A DNA stretch of 64,000 bases from Natronomonas moolapensis 8.8.11 (lineage in GTDB: Archaea; Halobacteriota; Halobacteria; Halobacteriales; Haloarculaceae). The DNA lies in contig NC_020388.1 in the NCBI RefSeq assembly GCF_000591055.1, positions 2,666,001 to 2,730,000 of the forward strand, in the 5' to 3' direction. Shown here one piece after another: positions 53,259 through 59,886 of the stretch (position 1 is its first letter; each line of letters begins with the position of its first letter). Under the pieces are notes generated by a model. That model was given only the letters and a program-made list of their open reading frames with translations, did not search any database and was not told the DNA's origin. The position numbers were made by a program, and so were the translations under genes.

Positions 53259-55952
53259 TCAGTTCCCGGTGTCCGCGTCGCCCGTGTCACCCATATCGTC
53301 CGCGTCGGCGGTCTCGGTCGCGTCGCCGTCCGCCTCGTTCGCGTTGTCGTCCGCTCCATCCGCGTCGCCAGTGCCACCTGCGCTGTCGGCATCGTCCACG
53401 TCGTAGAGCCGGCGAAGCGCCGCCTCGGCGCCCGAGCGTGTCTTCAAATACCGGCGGTCGCCGTCCGGCGTCCGAACCGCAAACCGGTACGTCCCGCTGT
53501 CGGGGCGGTACCACCGATCCCGGTGACGCGCCAGCGGTCCCTCGGGGAGGGTGGCTCCGTCCGGCGGCTCCCCGCTCGGGTCCGTCGGTCCCGGCGGGGC
53601 GGCTTCCTTCGGGACGCCGGACGGCCGTCCGTGGTCGCTCCCGGTCGGCCGTTCCGCGTCCCCGTCGGCCGTCGCGACGAGGATATCGCTCTCGGGGACC
53701 GAGGCCGCGCCGGGGGCGGTGTCGTGCGCTTCGTTCGTCACGGCCGTTCGGGTCCGTTCCATCAGGACCGCTTGTGTGTCGACGACGCGTTCGCCGTCTT
53801 CGGGACGCTGCTGGTCGTAGCTCCCGTCGGGGTTCATCGTCCAGCGCCGCCGGTTGTCCGCGAGGATCAACTCGAGGTTGAACTTCAACTGCCGGCGGAT
53901 GTCGGGGTCCTCGACCGGGGTGACCGCCTCGACGCGGCTGTCGAGGTTCCGGGCCATCCAGTCGGCGCTCCCGAGGTAGTACTCCGGGTGTCCCCAGTCG
54001 ACGTCGGCCCCCTCCGGGTCGGAGGCCGCCCCGTCGTCCGCGTCGGCCGCACGGGCACCGTTCTCGAAGTAGAAGATCCGGGAGTGTTCGAGGAACCGAC
54101 CCACGACCGAGTGGATCGAGACGGTCTCGCTGATTCCCTCTACTCCGGGGCGCAGCCGGCAGATGTCCCGGACGATGAGGTCGATGTCGACGCCGGCCAT
54201 CGACGCCCGGTACAGTTCCGCGACGATGCCGGGATCCTCGAGGCCGTTGACCTTCGCCACGATGCGGGCCGGGCGGCCGGCCCGGGCGTGTCGCGCCTCG
54301 CGGCGGATATAGCGGGTGAACTCCTCGCGCATCGTCACGGGGGCGACGAGCAGCTTTCGGAACTGTTCGTCCAGCCCCGGCCCAGTGAAGGAGTTGAAAA
54401 GCGTAACGAGGTCCTGCCCGATGTCGCGGTCGGCGGTCAACAGCCCGAGGTCGACGTAGCCCTTTGCCGTCTCGGAGTGGTAGTTGCCGGTGCCGACGTG
54501 TGAATAGAGGGTGACGTCGTTGTCGTCGTCCTCCCGGACGACGAGGGCGGTCTTCGTGTGGGTCTTCAGCCCGATGGTGCCGTAGGCGACGTGGATGCCG
54601 TTTTCCTCCAGACGGCGGACCCACTCGAGGTTGTTCTGCTCGTCGAAACGGGCCTTCAGTTCGACCATCACCGCGACCTGCTTGCCGTTCTCGGCGGCCT
54701 CGATGAGCGATTGGATGACCTGGGAGTCGCTCGCCGTCCGATAGATCGCCGCCTTCACCGCCAGCACGTCGGGATCGTTGGCCGCCTCGGTGAGAAACCG
54801 CTGGACCGTCTCGCCGAAATCGTGATACGGGTGATGTAGGAGGATGTCGTCCTCGTCGATGTGCTCGAAGACGCTCCGGGACTCCCCGTCGCCCTCGTCG
54901 GCTTCGAACGCCGGGCGAGCGTCCTCGCGGAGCCGCGGGTGCGACTGCGGCGACCAGGGATCGGGTTTCAGCTCGGGGCGGTCCAGTTCCGCCAGCGAGG
55001 CGAAATCGCGGTAGTCGATCGGTCCCTCGAGGTCGTATATTTCGCGCTCGTCGAGATCCAGTTCCTCGCGGAGCGTCTCCCGGATGTGCGGGTTGGCGTC
55101 CGATTCGATCTCCATCCGAACCGCGCTGGCGAAGCGGCGCTGTTCGAGCACGTCCTCGATCATCTCGATGAGATCCTCGGCCACCTCCTCGTTGCGGCGC
55201 ACCTCGGCGTTGCGCGTCAGGCGGAACAGCGCCGTGTCGAGTATGTCCACGTTCGGCAGGAGGAGATCGAGGTTGTGCTCGATTAGTTCCTCGACCAAGA
55301 CGTACCGCGAACTCTCTCCGACCTCGATCAGACGGGGACGGTTCGGCGGGATCTTGATCCGGGTGAACGTCGGATCGTCGCCTCCGTGCGGGCGGGTGAG
55401 TACCGCAAGCGACAGCGATCGGTTCGAAATGAACGGGAACGGGTGGGCCGGATCGAACGACAACGGCGTCAGCGTCGGCTTGATCGACCGCTCGAAGTGC
55501 TCGCGCAGCCCCGAACGCGCCCCGGCGCCGAGGTCGTCGTAGGCGACGATCTCGATGCCCGCCCGGGCCAGCGCCGGGCGGAGTTCCGTCTCATAACAGT
55601 CGGCCTGCTTGCGCAGCATCGGCTCGAGTTGTTCGTGGATCTCCTCCCACTGCTCGAGTGGGGTTCGGCCGTCGACGGTCGTCTCCGTGACCCCGGCCTC
55701 GATCTGCTGTTTGAGACCCCCGACCCGCTTCATGACGAACTCGTCTAAATTCCGGGTGACGATGGAGAGAAACCGGATCCGTTCGAGCAGGGGGGTCCGG
55801 TCGTCGAGGACTTCCCGAAGCACTCGCCGTTGGAATGCGAGTTCGCTCAGTTCGCGGTTCAGATACAGATCCGGGTCGGTCAGATCGACGTCTTCGGGTT
55901 CGTACGGCTCGATATCGACGTCGAGGGGTGGGATGTCCTGGTCGTCGCTCAT
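53259..55952 (-). CDS. ppk1: Polyphosphate kinase 1 with C-terminal extension
   Basis: The ATG at 55952 (M-S-D-D-Q-D-I-P-P-L-D-V) overlaps the stop of the metallophosphoesterase gene (ATGA). The 897-residue protein has the PPK1 domains: N-terminal helical part, head domain and two PLD-like catalytic domains. Y-S-H-V-G-T-G-N-Y-H carries the phosphorylated histidine and I-H-S-V-V-G-R-F-L-E-H the second histidine. The core ends near residue 705. The remaining roughly 190 residues are unusual: a Pro/Asp-rich linker, a small conserved-looking piece (R-D-R-W-Y-R-P-D-S-G-T-Y-R-F-A-V) and a Gly/Asp tail. The enzyme makes polyphosphate from ATP. Confidence 0.94.
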   Translation of the reverse strand: MSDDQDIPPLDVDIEPYEPEDVDLTDPDLYLNRELSELAFQRRVLREVLDDRTPLLERIRFLSIVTRNLDEFVMKRVGGLKQQIEAGVTETTVDGRTPLEQWEEIHEQLEPMLRKQADCYETELRPALARAGIEIVAYDDLGAGARSGLREHFERSIKPTLTPLSFDPAHPFPFISNRSLSLAVLTRPHGGDDPTFTRIKIPPNRPRLIEVGESSRYVLVEELIEHNLDLLLPNVDILDTALFRLTRNAEVRRNEEVAEDLIEMIEDVLEQRRFASAVRMEIESDANPHIRETLREELDLDEREIYDLEGPIDYRDFASLAELDRPELKPDPWSPQSHPRLREDARPAFEADEGDGESRSVFEHIDEDDILLHHPYHDFGETVQRFLTEAANDPDVLAVKAAIYRTASDSQVIQSLIEAAENGKQVAVMVELKARFDEQNNLEWVRRLEENGIHVAYGTIGLKTHTKTALVVREDDDNDVTLYSHVGTGNYHSETAKGYVDLGLLTADRDIGQDLVTLFNSFTGPGLDEQFRKLLVAPVTMREEFTRYIRREARHARAGRPARIVAKVNGLEDPGIVAELYRASMAGVDIDLIVRDICRLRPGVEGISETVSIHSVVGRFLEHSRIFYFENGARAADADDGAASDPEGADVDWGHPEYYLGSADWMARNLDSRVEAVTPVEDPDIRRQLKFNLELILADNRRRWTMNPDGSYDQQRPEDGERVVDTQAVLMERTRTAVTNEAHDTAPGAASVPESDILVATADGDAERPTGSDHGRPSGVPKEAAPPGPTDPSGEPPDGATLPEGPLARHRDRWYRPDSGTYRFAVRTPDGDRRYLKTRSGAEAALRRLYDVDDADSAGGTGDADGADDNANEADGDATETADADDMGDTGDADTGN

Positions 55953-56662
55953 GGCTGTCCGTCGGGCGTCGCGAGCCGCGGCTCGACGATGCTGTCGGTC
56001 GAGCGAGAACGGTAGGTTTCGGGCGGTTCGACGCTTCGGAACGCCGAGTCGCGGTAGTCGTAGGCGGTCAACCGGCCGCCGTAGACACAGCCCGTATCGA
56101 GGCCGACGGCGTGGTCGCTCGCGAACGGCTCCGCGAGGACGGTGTGGCCGAAGAAGATCCGGGGGGACTCCCGGCGGGTCTCGAACCAGTAGGGTCGTTC
56201 GTACCCGCCCTCGGGGGCGAGCGAGCGGGTGTTCAGGACGTCGGTGAGCGTGTGCTCGGCGACCGGCTTCCGGTGGTCGATCCCGCCGTGGACGACTGCG
56301 ACGTCGTCCCACGAGATAACCGCCGGCAGCGAGTCGAGGTACGCGAGGTCGTCGTCGCTCAGCGAGTCGATCGATTTTCGCCCGTCGACGAGTTTCTGCT
56401 CGTTGTTGCCCCGGACCGAAAGGAGGTTCGAGCGCGATCTGAGGACGTCGATGACGCCCTCGCTGTCGGGGCCCTTCCGAACCAGGTCACCGACGAAGAC
56501 GACGAGGTCGTTCCGGTCCGGAGCCAACGAGTCGAGGAGCCGTTCGAGCGTCGCCCGACAGCCGTGAACGTCGCCGACGACGTAGATGTCGTCCCAGTCG
56601 TCGCTGTCGAGGCGTCGGTGGGCCGCGTCAAGGTCCGTATCGAGTAGTAGTTCGAGAGACAT
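55949..56662 (-). CDS. PPP-type metallophosphoesterase
   Basis: The 237-residue protein has the calcineurin-type motifs: V-V-G-D-V-H-G-C near 30, V-G-D-L-V-R-K-G-P-D-S near 58, V-R-G-N-N-E near 84, where most relatives have G-N-H-E, V-V-H-G-G near 124 and F-G-H-T near 172. It is related to bacterial PrpE/ApaH and protein phosphatases. The change of the catalytic-site His to Asn in the G-N-H-E motif occurs in the ApaH/diadenosine tetraphosphatase and PrpE branches. Coupling with ppk1 suggests a role in polyphosphate or nucleotide-polyphosphate turnover, which is an inference. Confidence 0.88.
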   Translation of the reverse strand: MSLELLLDTDLDAAHRRLDSDDWDDIYVVGDVHGCRATLERLLDSLAPDRNDLVVFVGDLVRKGPDSEGVIDVLRSRSNLLSVRGNNEQKLVDGRKSIDSLSDDDLAYLDSLPAVISWDDVAVVHGGIDHRKPVAEHTLTDVLNTRSLAPEGGYERPYWFETRRESPRIFFGHTVLAEPFASDHAVGLDTGCVYGGRLTAYDYRDSAFRSVEPPETYRSRSTDSIVEPRLATPDGQP

Positions 56663-56763: not shown

Positions 56764-56813
56764 TTTAGGTATGCCTAAATTATTTACGCGAGGGTTTTTT
56801 AGGCGTGCCTAAA
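56764..56813 (+). promoter_or_regulatory. Two DtxR-type palindromes flanking a TATA box
   Basis: TTTAGGTATGCCTAAA (56764-56779) and TTTAGGCGTGCCTAAA (56798-56813) share the perfect frame TTTAGG-N4-CCTAAA, the form of operators for DtxR/MntR/IdeR-family metal-dependent repressors. They are 34 bp apart. An AT-rich TATA candidate (AAATTATTTA, 56777-56786) lies between them, and the second box overlaps the place where transcription would start. Binding there should block initiation when the metal is abundant. Confidence 0.75.
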
Positions 56814-56914
56814 TGGCTCCGAACACGCCGCGACCGACGAATCGATCGGTCGCCGCCAACGGAAAGAGATCGCTGATGGGCCGCGAACCCGACGGAAACG
56901 GCGGTGGTCGCTGA
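56813..56914 (+). CDS. 33-residue leader ORF coupled to DUF7260-like gene
   Basis: The ATG at 56813 is about 28 bases after the TATA candidate and directly at the end of the second palindrome, as in a leaderless transcript. The 33-residue product is basic (several Arg and Lys, ending G-N-G-G-G-R), which is unusual for a haloarchaeon. Its TGA stop overlaps the next start (TGATG at 56912-56916). It may be a true small protein or simply a device for coupled translation. The peptide itself shows no motif. Confidence 0.45.
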   Translation: MAPNTPRPTNRSVAANGKRSLMGREPDGNGGGR

Positions 56915-57717
56915 TGAAGCGGCGACCGATCGGCCACCTCGGGGACGCACGCGAGCGCGTCGTGGCCGAATCGGACCACGTCGAGGGAAAGCTCGCGGCG
57001 TTCGATCGGTTCGAGCGGAGGGTTCGCGGGATCGACCCGGTCGAGACCGGAACGGCCGCCACGGCGCGGGTGGCCGGCGGCGGAACGGTGTCCAGCAGGC
57101 TCATCGCAGAGCGATCGGGCGACGACCGATGTCGGCGGGTTCGGGAGGGGTTCGCGGAGACGGTTCGCCCCTACAGCGTCGAGGACGTCACGGAGGCCGA
57201 GTCGGTCGTCGCGACGATCGGCGAGGAGCTCGGCGAGGAGGTCGCACTCGCCGTCTCTCCCGGTGGCGGCGGGGCGTTCACCCCGGCGATTCGGGAGGTC
57301 GTCCTCTCTGCGGTCGGGGACCGTCGCTCCGAACTCCGGGCGATGTCGGCGGCGCTCGAGCGCGAGCACGGCTCCATCCGGACGACCGTCGACGAACTCG
57401 ACGCGGCGCTCGAGGCGGTGGAGGCGCTCGGGAGCCGGCGGCTCTACCGATGCGGGTTCGGGGAGCTCCGCGAGCGTCACGAGCGGTTGGCTCGCTTCCG
57501 AGAGCGCAACGAGCGCCTCGCCCGGGAACGCCAGAAACTCGTCGGCTCGACGACGAGCCACGGAGCGGCGACGGGGATCCGACACCGAACGCTGCTCGAG
57601 TACCTGTACCGGGATCTATCGGTCGACCATCCCGTACTGACGGCGGTCGTCGACTTCGAGAAGAGGTGCCTCGAGCGACAGCGGGCGATCCGAGACCAGT
57701 TGACCCGGCGGGTGTGA
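56914..57717 (+). CDS. DUF7260-like helical protein
   Basis: The 267-residue protein begins M-K-R-R-P-I-G-H-L-G-D-A-R-E-R-V-V-A-E-S-D and is predicted largely helical, with coiled-coil regions at about 25-45 and 145-220. The pattern resembles the haloarchaeal family I recall as DUF7260, which has no known function. It has no membrane segment. Its promoter region holds two DtxR-type boxes, so it is probably controlled by iron or manganese. The convergent neighbour is a Bat-type HTH_10 regulator. Confidence 0.72.
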   Translation: MKRRPIGHLGDARERVVAESDHVEGKLAAFDRFERRVRGIDPVETGTAATARVAGGGTVSSRLIAERSGDDRCRRVREGFAETVRPYSVEDVTEAESVVATIGEELGEEVALAVSPGGGGAFTPAIREVVLSAVGDRRSELRAMSAALEREHGSIRTTVDELDAALEAVEALGSRRLYRCGFGELRERHERLARFRERNERLARERQKLVGSTTSHGAATGIRHRTLLEYLYRDLSVDHPVLTAVVDFEKRCLERQRAIRDQLTRRV

Positions 57718-57762
57718 GCCACCCGCCCGGGACCGGACGGCGCACCGACGCCAGCCACGACC

Positions 57763-58422
57763 TCAGTCGGCGGCGACTGGGCCGTCGGCCCTCGCGAGTT
57801 CGGCGACGAGTTTCGATTCGACGGCCGCGAGCCGCTGAGAGATTGCCGACCGCGAAACGCCGAGTTCGGCCGCGAGGTCCGCGAGGTCGGCGTCCCGCGG
57901 GGTCTCGTAGTAGCCGGCCGAGACGGCGGTTCGAACCGCCTCGCGCTGTTTGCCGGTGACCGTGTCCGCGGCGAGTTCGAGAGAGCGGCCGTCCGAGTCG
58001 CCGCCCGGCGACGTCGAGAGCCGATCGACCCGGACGGTCGCGTCACGCGCCCTGAGCGCAGCGACGACGGCCACCAGTTCCTCGCGATCCGGGACAACGA
58101 CGGACACCGAAAGCGTGTCGCCCTCGAACCCATCTATGGACGCGACGCAGTCGTACTCGCGAAACGCCGGACAGATACAACGGTCCGCGACCTCGCCGGT
58201 CAGGAGCTTCGGTTCGGCGTCCGAGTCGGCGGTCGCCTCGGCCCGACACTGGGCACGACAGCCGCCGTCGCAATCACCCGACTCGGGCGTTGTGTGCATC
58301 GAGACCGTACCGCTTGAGCCGGAACCGAGGACGACGCAGTCGGCTGCGGACGACGGCGTCACAGAAAGCGTCACGCGGAGGTGGCCGTCGGTCTCTCGGT
58401 CGGTGGGTCGGGGATCGGGCAT
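57763..58422 (-). CDS. HTH_10 (Bat-type) transcriptional regulator
   Basis: From the ATG at 58422 (M-P-D-P-R-P-T-D-R-E-T-D) the 219-residue protein has an N-terminal sensor-like region with a cysteine cluster (D-C-D-G-G-C-R-A-Q-C near residue 52-62 and C-I-C-P near 83) and a C-terminal HTH_10 domain (L-T-G-K-Q-R-E-A-V-R type start T-V-T-G-K-Q-R-E-A-V, A-G-Y-Y-E-T-P-R, S-R-S-A-I-S-Q-R-L). Six or more cysteines in the sensor could bind a metal or Fe-S cluster, so it may respond to metal or redox state. Confidence 0.87.
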   Translation of the reverse strand: MPDPRPTDRETDGHLRVTLSVTPSSAADCVVLGSGSSGTVSMHTTPESGDCDGGCRAQCRAEATADSDAEPKLLTGEVADRCICPAFREYDCVASIDGFEGDTLSVSVVVPDREELVAVVAALRARDATVRVDRLSTSPGGDSDGRSLELAADTVTGKQREAVRTAVSAGYYETPRDADLADLAAELGVSRSAISQRLAAVESKLVAELARADGPVAAD

Positions 58423-58532
58423 GGTTCGCTCGCGTGAGCGTAAACGCCGGCCACATAACTCTGCCGGGGGCGTTCCCAGTCCCCGGGACAGTGCCGGAAC
58501 GAAACCGAGCGCTCGTACGGTTCGGGCGGCTC

Positions 58533-58892
58533 TCAAGTGGAGAACTCGACGTCCGTCCGATCACCGACCTCGATCTCGATTCGCTCGACGGACCGCCGGT
58601 ACTCGGTCGCGTGGCCGGTGTCGCCGACGGGGCGGTCGGTCGGGACCAGCAGGTCCGCTTCGACGAGTCGGTTCACCTTCCGGTAGGCGGTCGAGCGCGC
58701 GACGTCGCACTCGGCCGCCAGTTCGGGGATCGTCCGGGGCCTGCCGGCCCGCTCGAACAGTTCCCGTGCGTCGTCGTCCGCGAGTAACTCCAGTAGGGAC
58801 TCCGGTTCCGAGTCCGGGGTCGCGTCCGCGTCCGGGGGCGCAACCGGGCTTCGATCCGAGTCGGCGGGGCGTCCGTCGGCGTTCTGGCTCAC
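58533..58892 (-). CDS. Winged-helix transcriptional regulator
   Basis: A GTG at 58892 starts a 119-residue protein: a disordered acidic N-terminus of about 30 residues, then an ArsR-type winged helix (L-L-E-L-L-A-D-D-D-A-R-E-L-F, T-I-P-E-L-A-A-E-C-D-V-A-R-S-T-A-Y-R-K-V-N-R-L) with the wing G-H-A-T-E-Y-R-R-S-V. The family is common in haloarchaea, often as a sensor-less regulator. A TATA-like TTATATACTA is about 45 bases upstream. It is 80 bp after the ZIP transporter gene on the same strand. Confidence 0.83.
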   Translation of the reverse strand: MSQNADGRPADSDRSPVAPPDADATPDSEPESLLELLADDDARELFERAGRPRTIPELAAECDVARSTAYRKVNRLVEADLLVPTDRPVGDTGHATEYRRSVERIEIEVGDRTDVEFST

Positions 58893-58972
58893 AGTTATCG
58901 TTCGATGTCCACGCCGAAGAGTCCCGTTCGAAAGAATACAGTAGTATATAAGCGACGACGGGGACGCGGCGA

Positions 58973-59815
58973 TCACACGTACAAAAGCGGAACCATCGCC
59001 GCGACGCCCGCGAGGAGGCCGGCGAGCAGTTCGCGGCGACCCCCGCCGGGCAGGTCCGCACCGGTGTCGAGCGCCTCCGGGATGAACTCCGTCACGACCA
59101 GATACACCATCGCGCCCGCGGCGAAGCCGAACCCGAAGGGCAGGAACTCCCGGGCCCAGGTGACGAACACGAACGCGATGGCGGCGCCGATCGGCTGCGG
59201 GAGACTCGAAAAGACGGCGGCCCCGACCATCCGCCACTTCGAGAGCCCCATCGCCCGCATCGGGATGGCGATGGCCGTCCCCTCCGGAACGTTGTGGATC
59301 GAGATGGCGACGGTCATGAACACCGCAAGCAGCGGGACCGAAACCCCGAGGATCGGGAGGCCACCCTCCAGACCGAGTTCGGCGAAGGAGACCCCGACAG
59401 CGACGCCTTCGGGGAAGCTGTGGACCGTGAGGATGCCGAGGATGAGGACGAGTTTCTTCAGGTCGGCCTGGGCGAACGCGGCGGCCCCGAGAGGGGCCTC
59501 TTCGCCCTCGCGGGTCGGATCGTCGACCCCGCCGATGTCGACCGAGTCGAGCACCCGATCGGCGGCCTCGACCAAGGCGACACCGACGAGCAGGCCGCCG
59601 ATCAGAAGCGTCGGGAGCCCCGCCGTGGCGTAGGCCAGCCCCTCGTTTATCAGTCCGAAGAGCGACGCCGAGACCATGATCCCCGAGGCGATGCCCCACA
59701 GCGCGACGTTCCACCGGTCGCTGAAATCCTCGACAAAAAAGAACGGGATAGCGCCGAGACCGGTAGCGAGCGCCGTGATCAGGCCGGCGACGAAGACGAA
59801 GACGATGTTCTCCAC
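58973..59815 (-). CDS. ZIP-family metal transporter
   Basis: The 280-residue protein has eight predicted transmembrane helices and the ZIP metal-binding pairs H-S-F-P-E-G-V-A-V-G in helix IV (near residue 131) and H-N-V-P-E-G in helix V (near 173). ZIP proteins import Zn2+, Fe2+ or Mn2+. Helix III/IV connection is acidic rather than His-rich. A DtxR-type box is found at 59871-59886, 56-71 bases upstream of the start, which points to iron or manganese control. Confidence 0.93.
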   Translation of the reverse strand: MENIVFVFVAGLITALATGLGAIPFFFVEDFSDRWNVALWGIASGIMVSASLFGLINEGLAYATAGLPTLLIGGLLVGVALVEAADRVLDSVDIGGVDDPTREGEEAPLGAAAFAQADLKKLVLILGILTVHSFPEGVAVGVSFAELGLEGGLPILGVSVPLLAVFMTVAISIHNVPEGTAIAIPMRAMGLSKWRMVGAAVFSSLPQPIGAAIAFVFVTWAREFLPFGFGFAAGAMVYLVVTEFIPEALDTGADLPGGGRRELLAGLLAGVAAMVPLLYV

Positions 59816-59870
59816 GTGTATCTCTGTGTTAGGTCGTATAGCAAAAAGCCTTTCTAATATGCAAATATAT

Positions 59871-59886
59871 TTTTGGTTATCCTAAA
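59871..59886 (-). promoter_or_regulatory. DtxR-type box upstream of the ZIP gene
   Basis: On the minus strand the sequence reads TTTAGGATAACCAAAA. It fits TTTAGG-N4-CCTAAA at 11 of 12 defined positions. It lies in the AT-rich promoter region of the ZIP transporter, just upstream of the TATA-like ATATATTTG. Its likeness to the two boxes at 56764-56813 suggests the same metal-dependent repressor. Confidence 0.65.

Follow-up and report, generated by a model that had tools for sequence, protein, structure and literature searches.

The window, by which we mean the whole 64-kb stretch of Natronomonas moolapensis 8.8.11 that was analysed, contains a gene of the DUF7260 family preceded by two copies of the palindrome TTTAGG-N4-CCTAAA and, on the opposite strand, a gene for a ZIP-family metal transporter preceded by a near copy (Table 1). 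A pattern scan that allowed up to two mismatches found exactly three such sites in the window, and they are the ones that an earlier sequence-only reading had pointed out: two perfect sites before the DUF7260-like gene and one with a single mismatch before the ZIP gene. The gene assignments of that reading hold as well. The first protein matches PF23921 with E = 1.4e-67 (228 bits against a cut-off of 27, residues 8-256, nearly the whole profile), and the transporter matches PF02535 with E = 4.4e-15, over the cut-off.

Table 1. Features of the DUF7260 and ZIP loci, in positions of the window.
Feature	Position	Strand	Remarks
Operator O1	56764..56779	.	TTTAGGTATGCCTAAA; 0 mismatches, perfect palindrome; paired layout conserved in relatives
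Candidate TATA box between O1 and O2	56780..56787	+	TTATTTAC; putative, read from the letters
Operator O2	56798..56813	.	TTTAGGCGTGCCTAAA; 0 mismatches, perfect palindrome
33-aa leader ORF	56813..56914	+	TGATG: its TGA overlaps the DUF7260 ATG
DUF7260 gene	56914..57717	+	267 aa, intact, PF23921
ZIP-family metal transporter	58973..59815	-	PF02535, GTG start
Candidate ZIP TATA box	59862..59870	-	directly beside the operator; putative, read from the letters
ZIP operator	59871..59886	.	minus strand reads TTTAGGATAACCAAAA; 1 mismatch from the palindrome

The two operators O1 and O2 are spaced 34 bp apart. The right half of O1 abuts the presumed BRE/TATA region, with the candidate TATA box about 30 bp 5' of the first ATG, and the final base of O2 is the A of the ATG of the leader ORF, so that a leaderless transcript would start within O2. 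The same order of operator, TATA-like stretch, operator and ATG is found at the relative loci L087, L146 and L132, and the overlap of operator and ATG recurs at the first two of these. Because the leader ORF joins DUF7260 through the TGATG overlap, the operon in the window consists of leader and DUF7260, and a comparison of positions shows the leader in the place that a DUF7552(/7551) gene occupies in relatives. We also considered that O1 and O2 serve the divergent metallophosphatase gene (55949-56662), and rejected it: in relatives the sites remain with DUF7260 or its operon, and the metallophosphatase gene is not among the conserved neighbours there.

The DUF7260 protein is predicted to be all-helical with a small beta hairpin (model pLDDT 86). 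Compared with solved structures the model gave no match at E <= 0.001, the best being long-helix proteins, and a search of the PDB with the sequence profile gave nothing meaningful. Our literature search found no mention of DUF7260, DUF7551 or DUF7552.

Distribution of the motif in the genome

The operator is palindromic, its spacing is fixed at N4 and its frequency is far beyond chance. Shuffled versions of the window held 0.29 sites on average against the three real ones, and none of 100 shuffles reached three. The genome-wide scan that the sequence-only reading had called for gave seven perfect and three one-mismatch sites in the 2.91-Mb genome; base composition would predict about 0.03 perfect ones. 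The 15 Natronomonas genomes scanned contain 90 perfect sites, against 0 for the pattern read backwards. In the 1.16 Mb of sequence surrounding DUF7260 genes there were 66 matches with the N4 spacing; spacings of N2, N3 and N5-N8 matched 0-1 times, and so did four control patterns, control palindromes among them.

Most of the perfect sites elsewhere in the genome are found at genes for an ABC transporter and glycosyltransferases. Four of them belong to one cluster, which encodes a solute-binding protein, a BPD-type permease, a reversibly-glycosylated-polypeptide-like protein, a dolichyl-phosphate hexose transferase and a GMC oxidoreductase with its small subunit; much of this cluster, sites included, recurs in other Natronomonas genomes. 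One more perfect site lies 5' of a truncated flippase-like gene. No iron-specific model matched the binding protein and permease of the cluster, and their best NCBIfam matches were weak and mixed; it is its place in the regulon that suggests that this transporter may carry iron. The sites act like true operators of metal uptake in their placement on the promoters of uptake genes, here those for an ABC binding protein and permease of putative substrate and in relatives those for siderophore-binding proteins and FecCD.

One clade of DUF7260 is linked to the operator

Among the 116 genomes that share the GTDB family of this strain, 91 contain DUF7260. Our first set comprised 100 fetched neighbourhoods with 101 DUF7260 genes, and a gene was called linked when a site lay between -3000 and +1500 bp of it. 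This was so for 27 of the 101 genes and for 0 of the remaining 74. A single branch of the maximum-likelihood tree, with a support of 100/100, separates all 27 from the other 74, and the operator trait needs one change on the tree, compared with 23.9 for shuffled labels. The window gene belongs to the operator-linked clade by that 100/100 branch, its exact position within the clade being weak (88/1). The suggestion in the sequence-only reading that DUF7260 takes part in metal homeostasis can therefore be kept for one clade, on the strength of operators, tree and operon partners, and not for the 74 of 101 members that have no site.

A second set covered named genomes (Halorubrum, Natrinema, Haladaptatus, Haloquadratum, Halogeometricum and others) and comprised 29 loci. 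A site was found in the same range at 20 of these, seven further loci had one at -3.2 to -3.9 kb, heading the gene run, and two had none. Clade members served as the query for this set, so that it tests the operator link and not the boundary of the clade. Among the 23 loci absent from the first set (the other six match, by length, contigs already in it) 21 are operator-linked.

In relatives, the genes 5' of the clade members encode siderophore-binding proteins (PF01497, Peripla_BP_2), a FecCD permease (PF01032) and an FAD oxidoreductase, and DUF7552, with or without DUF7551, directly overlaps DUF7260 upstream. A short DtxR-family regulator (PF01325 and PF02742) frequently follows on the 3' side, and after it come an amphi-Trp protein with a site of its own and then DpsA. 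Gene order and overlap suggest that these genes are co-transcribed. The predicted model of DUF7552/7551 (pLDDT 61) was too poor for a comparison of folds. Among 45 non-redundant operator pairs the distance is 34-37 bp in 42 and exactly 36 bp in 30, and the simplest reading would be repression by occupying both flanks of the TATA box.

The window gene has no adjoining siderophore-uptake or DUF7552 genes. DUF7552 was not found anywhere in the genome, which has only one clear FecCD gene, and DUF7260 thus stands alone here, without siderophore partners. Neither this FecCD gene nor the binding protein near it has an operator among the sites listed. In the nearest relative examined (G009), there was no operator-linked DUF7260 among the fetched loci.

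The ZIP site is a variant of the operator

A relative of the ZIP transporter is present in 80 of 81 good genomes of the family. The protein scores below the equivalog cut-off of ZupT (96.8 against 252 bits). Its operator ends 55 bp 5' of the start of the gene, and a site at about the same upstream distance was found in 28 of the 30 best orthologues, with conserved half-sites and a variable spacer. The form seen here, TTTAGG-N4-CCAAAA, or one close to it, is usual in the orthologues. None of the 28 ZIP promoters has the perfect right half CCTAAA, since position 12 is A in 26 of them and G in two, and the promoter falls outside the class of perfect palindromes when tested for it. The variant occurs at 22 sites in ten Natronomonas genomes, against two in controls, and it recurs 5' of an ABC ATPase (ABC_tran and TOBE_2) and of a small gene beside dpsA. 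We also considered that CCAAAA is conserved for a second function as a BRE, which agrees with the window but not with the orthologues in which the likely TATA box is farther off.

The ZIP site is therefore real, but it belongs to a sub-class of the operator motif. What had been described as operators shared by ZIP and DUF7260 turns out to be a conserved site of the same motif family in an asymmetric variant, and not an identical site or one proven to bind the same regulator. The closeness of the two genes, 3 kb, is not conserved and is not what links them: sites are scattered over the genome, and G009 has the ZIP gene without a neighbouring DUF7260.

Candidate regulators

A DtxR-family protein with DNA-binding and metal-binding domains is encoded in the genome. 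There are two clear ones, one full-length with a FeoA domain and one short, at G000 662985; the regulator at L016 has PF01325, PF02742 and FeoA, and that at L017 PF01325 and PF02742. Nearly every well-assembled Natronomonas genome encodes both types, whereas the type encoded in the operons is patchy. The full-length protein resembles solved regulators of the DtxR, IdeR and SloR types, its best NCBIfam model is MntR, below the cut-off, and its metal-ligand residues are what we take to be a mixture of iron and manganese types. This FeoA-domain (Idr-type) regulator, at G000 1170110, is our first candidate, and the most likely one, for binding O1 and O2.

Discussion

We think that the window DUF7260 gene is under iron-type DtxR control, and would give this a probability of roughly 80%; the regulator, the metal and the direction of regulation are putative. 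O1 and O2 are in that case predicted sites of a metal-dependent DtxR-family repressor. When iron is plentiful, the repressor would flank the TATA box, covering the transcription start as well as the BRE side, and keep the polymerase from assembling. Under iron shortage it would come off, and the leader-DUF7260 transcript would be produced along with the ABC uptake system; the ABC ATPase and ZIP would then also be expressed, through the related variant site. The operator-linked clade of DUF7260 would accordingly be an iron-limitation protein, and in many haloarchaea its position places it in an iron (siderophore) regulon.

The alternative that deserves most attention divides the sites between the two DtxR paralogues, so that the FeoA-domain regulator reads the perfect palindromes, those of DUF7260 and of the iron cluster, and the short paralogue, or a regulator that responds to manganese or zinc, reads the asymmetric ones (ZIP, the ABC ATPase and the small gene beside dpsA); in that case ZIP and DUF7260 would be controlled separately. 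We consider this rather unlikely. It could account for the symmetry-breaking position, which keeps A or G and never T in 28 ZIP promoters in spite of variable spacers, but these promoters have a common ancestry. The variant has a conserved gene set of its own (the 22 sites against two), and two DtxR types are indeed at hand in nearly all well-assembled Natronomonas genomes. Against this, variant half-sites also form one member of the pairs before siderophore operons. The ABC ATPase with a variant site may plausibly work together with the binding protein and permease that have perfect sites, and another variant site lies beside dpsA, and with such a context for the variant sites the targets look like one iron regulon.

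A regulon that answers mainly to manganese, or to both metals, is improbable. ZIP proteins can carry manganese, zinc and iron, the sub-threshold MntR match of the candidate regulator leans the same way, and haloarchaeal DtxR-family mutants have been catalogued for manganese as well as iron homeostasis (PMC5605881). The partners of the clade are on the other hand siderophore-binding proteins, FecCD and Dps and not manganese transporters, and the fhu proteins of Haloferax volcanii respond to iron (PMC11349517). Of the iron and manganese control first suggested for this locus, iron is hence the part that the neighbouring genes favour, and manganese less so. That chance or generic promoter sequence without a regulatory role explains the sites, which are AT-rich and overlap promoter positions, is hardly credible in view of the spacing and pattern controls (66 matches against 0-1), the backwards pattern in the 15 genus genomes (90 against 0), the complete association with one DUF7260 clade within the sample, the second set of loci and the conserved spacing of the pairs.

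Returning to iron control by a DtxR-family repressor, the clade sits in operons with siderophore-uptake genes in relatives, and a role in the handling of imported iron or siderophore is for that reason probable. That this role is cytoplasmic, with DUF7260 helping to use or handle what has been imported, is a tentative proposal to which we give somewhat less than even odds. More speculative, and in our opinion doubtful, is the idea that the operator-linked clade and DUF7552/7551 form an unrecognised cytoplasmic module of iron acquisition (e.g. for siderophore handling or the release of iron after uptake), which could outlive the siderophore transporter as here, and in which two sub-classes of operator would split the regulon between two DtxR paralogues. 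A family without an assigned function gains a condition under which one of its clades should matter, and its role can thus be tested in haloarchaea that are amenable to genetics. With one operator on each side of the TATA box at 34-37 bp, the paired layout also makes a simple model of archaeal repression.

Much of this has parallels in known systems. In Haloferax volcanii the fhu operons follow an iron-regulon signal, which is credited to Leyn and Rodionov 2015, and the fhu proteins and a UPF0104 protein increase on iron starvation (PMC11349517). The archaeal DtxR-family iron regulons (FetR/ferR, and in haloarchaea Idr, SirR and TroR) share a short palindrome of the TTAGG type, and have in common with the present case that sites lie before siderophore and other ABC uptake genes and that DtxR-family regulators are present. 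The FetR/ferR regulons described by Leyn and Rodionov in 2015 reportedly include ZIP among their targets. The bacterial DtxR/IdeR box has the half-sites TTAGG...CCTAA and the family of metal-dependent repressors in common with the window sites; it spans about 19 bp, more than the window sites do, and its spacer differs, whereas the half-sites here are fixed at N4. The window protein matches the Pfam family DUF7260 (PF23921), but the operator is found only in one clade of it, and the larger clade is without. The DUF7260 clade would be an addition to an already known type of regulon, and what comes from this analysis is its clade-specific link to the operator and the paired operator layout.

Other genes and operator sites

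Because the glycosyltransferases and the GMC oxidoreductase of one cluster in this genome (L025) have the DtxR-type operator in common with an ABC transporter, the arrangement suggests that iron shortage leads to altered surface glycosylation. A dolichyl-phosphate hexose transferase is among these glycosyltransferases. Both asymmetric sites of another locus (L027) are kept in Natronomonas; one lies ahead of an ABC ATPase, the other ahead of a 45-aa ORF adjoining dpsA.

In relatives, the uncharacterised families DUF7552 and DUF7551 may be candidate members of whatever pathway the operator-linked DUF7260 serves. Paired operators precede the gene for a large and probably secreted protein, which is found upstream of DUF7260 and whose C-terminal end, read by eye, resembles a plastocyanin/halocyanin domain. 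We found no operator at the second DUF7260 gene of the genome, and no operator-like site near the two window HTH regulators, one being HTH_10 with a DmsR_N-like part and the other HTH_20.

Coordinates of the features discussed (G000 is the genome of the window)
Feature	Locus	Genome or window
Glycosyltransferases, GMC oxidoreductase, ABC transporter; common operator	L025:5852-15494	G000:C1:2505851-2515493
TTTAGG-N4-CCAAAA sites (n=2)	L027:5043-5058, L027:7435-7450	G000:C1:1695042, 1697434
Perfect operator before flippase-like (LPG_synthase_TM/UPF0104-type) frame	L026:5746-5761	G000:C1:395745-395760
DUF7552 and DUF7551, overlapping start of operator-linked DUF7260	L078:6406-7317, L062:4681-5598, and relatives	
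Large, seemingly secreted protein	L069:6740-9193; also Halorubrum loci L191, L193, L196	
Second DUF7260 gene, other clade	L072	G000:C1:1771082-1771798
Two HTH regulators between DUF7260 and ZIP, minus strand		window 57763-58422, 58533-58892

The flippase-like frame behind a perfect operator appears truncated past about 85 residues and is adjoined by an ATPase-resembling fragment. In iron-starved Haloferax volcanii a UPF0104 protein, of the type that this frame resembles, was 11.6-fold up (PMC11349517).
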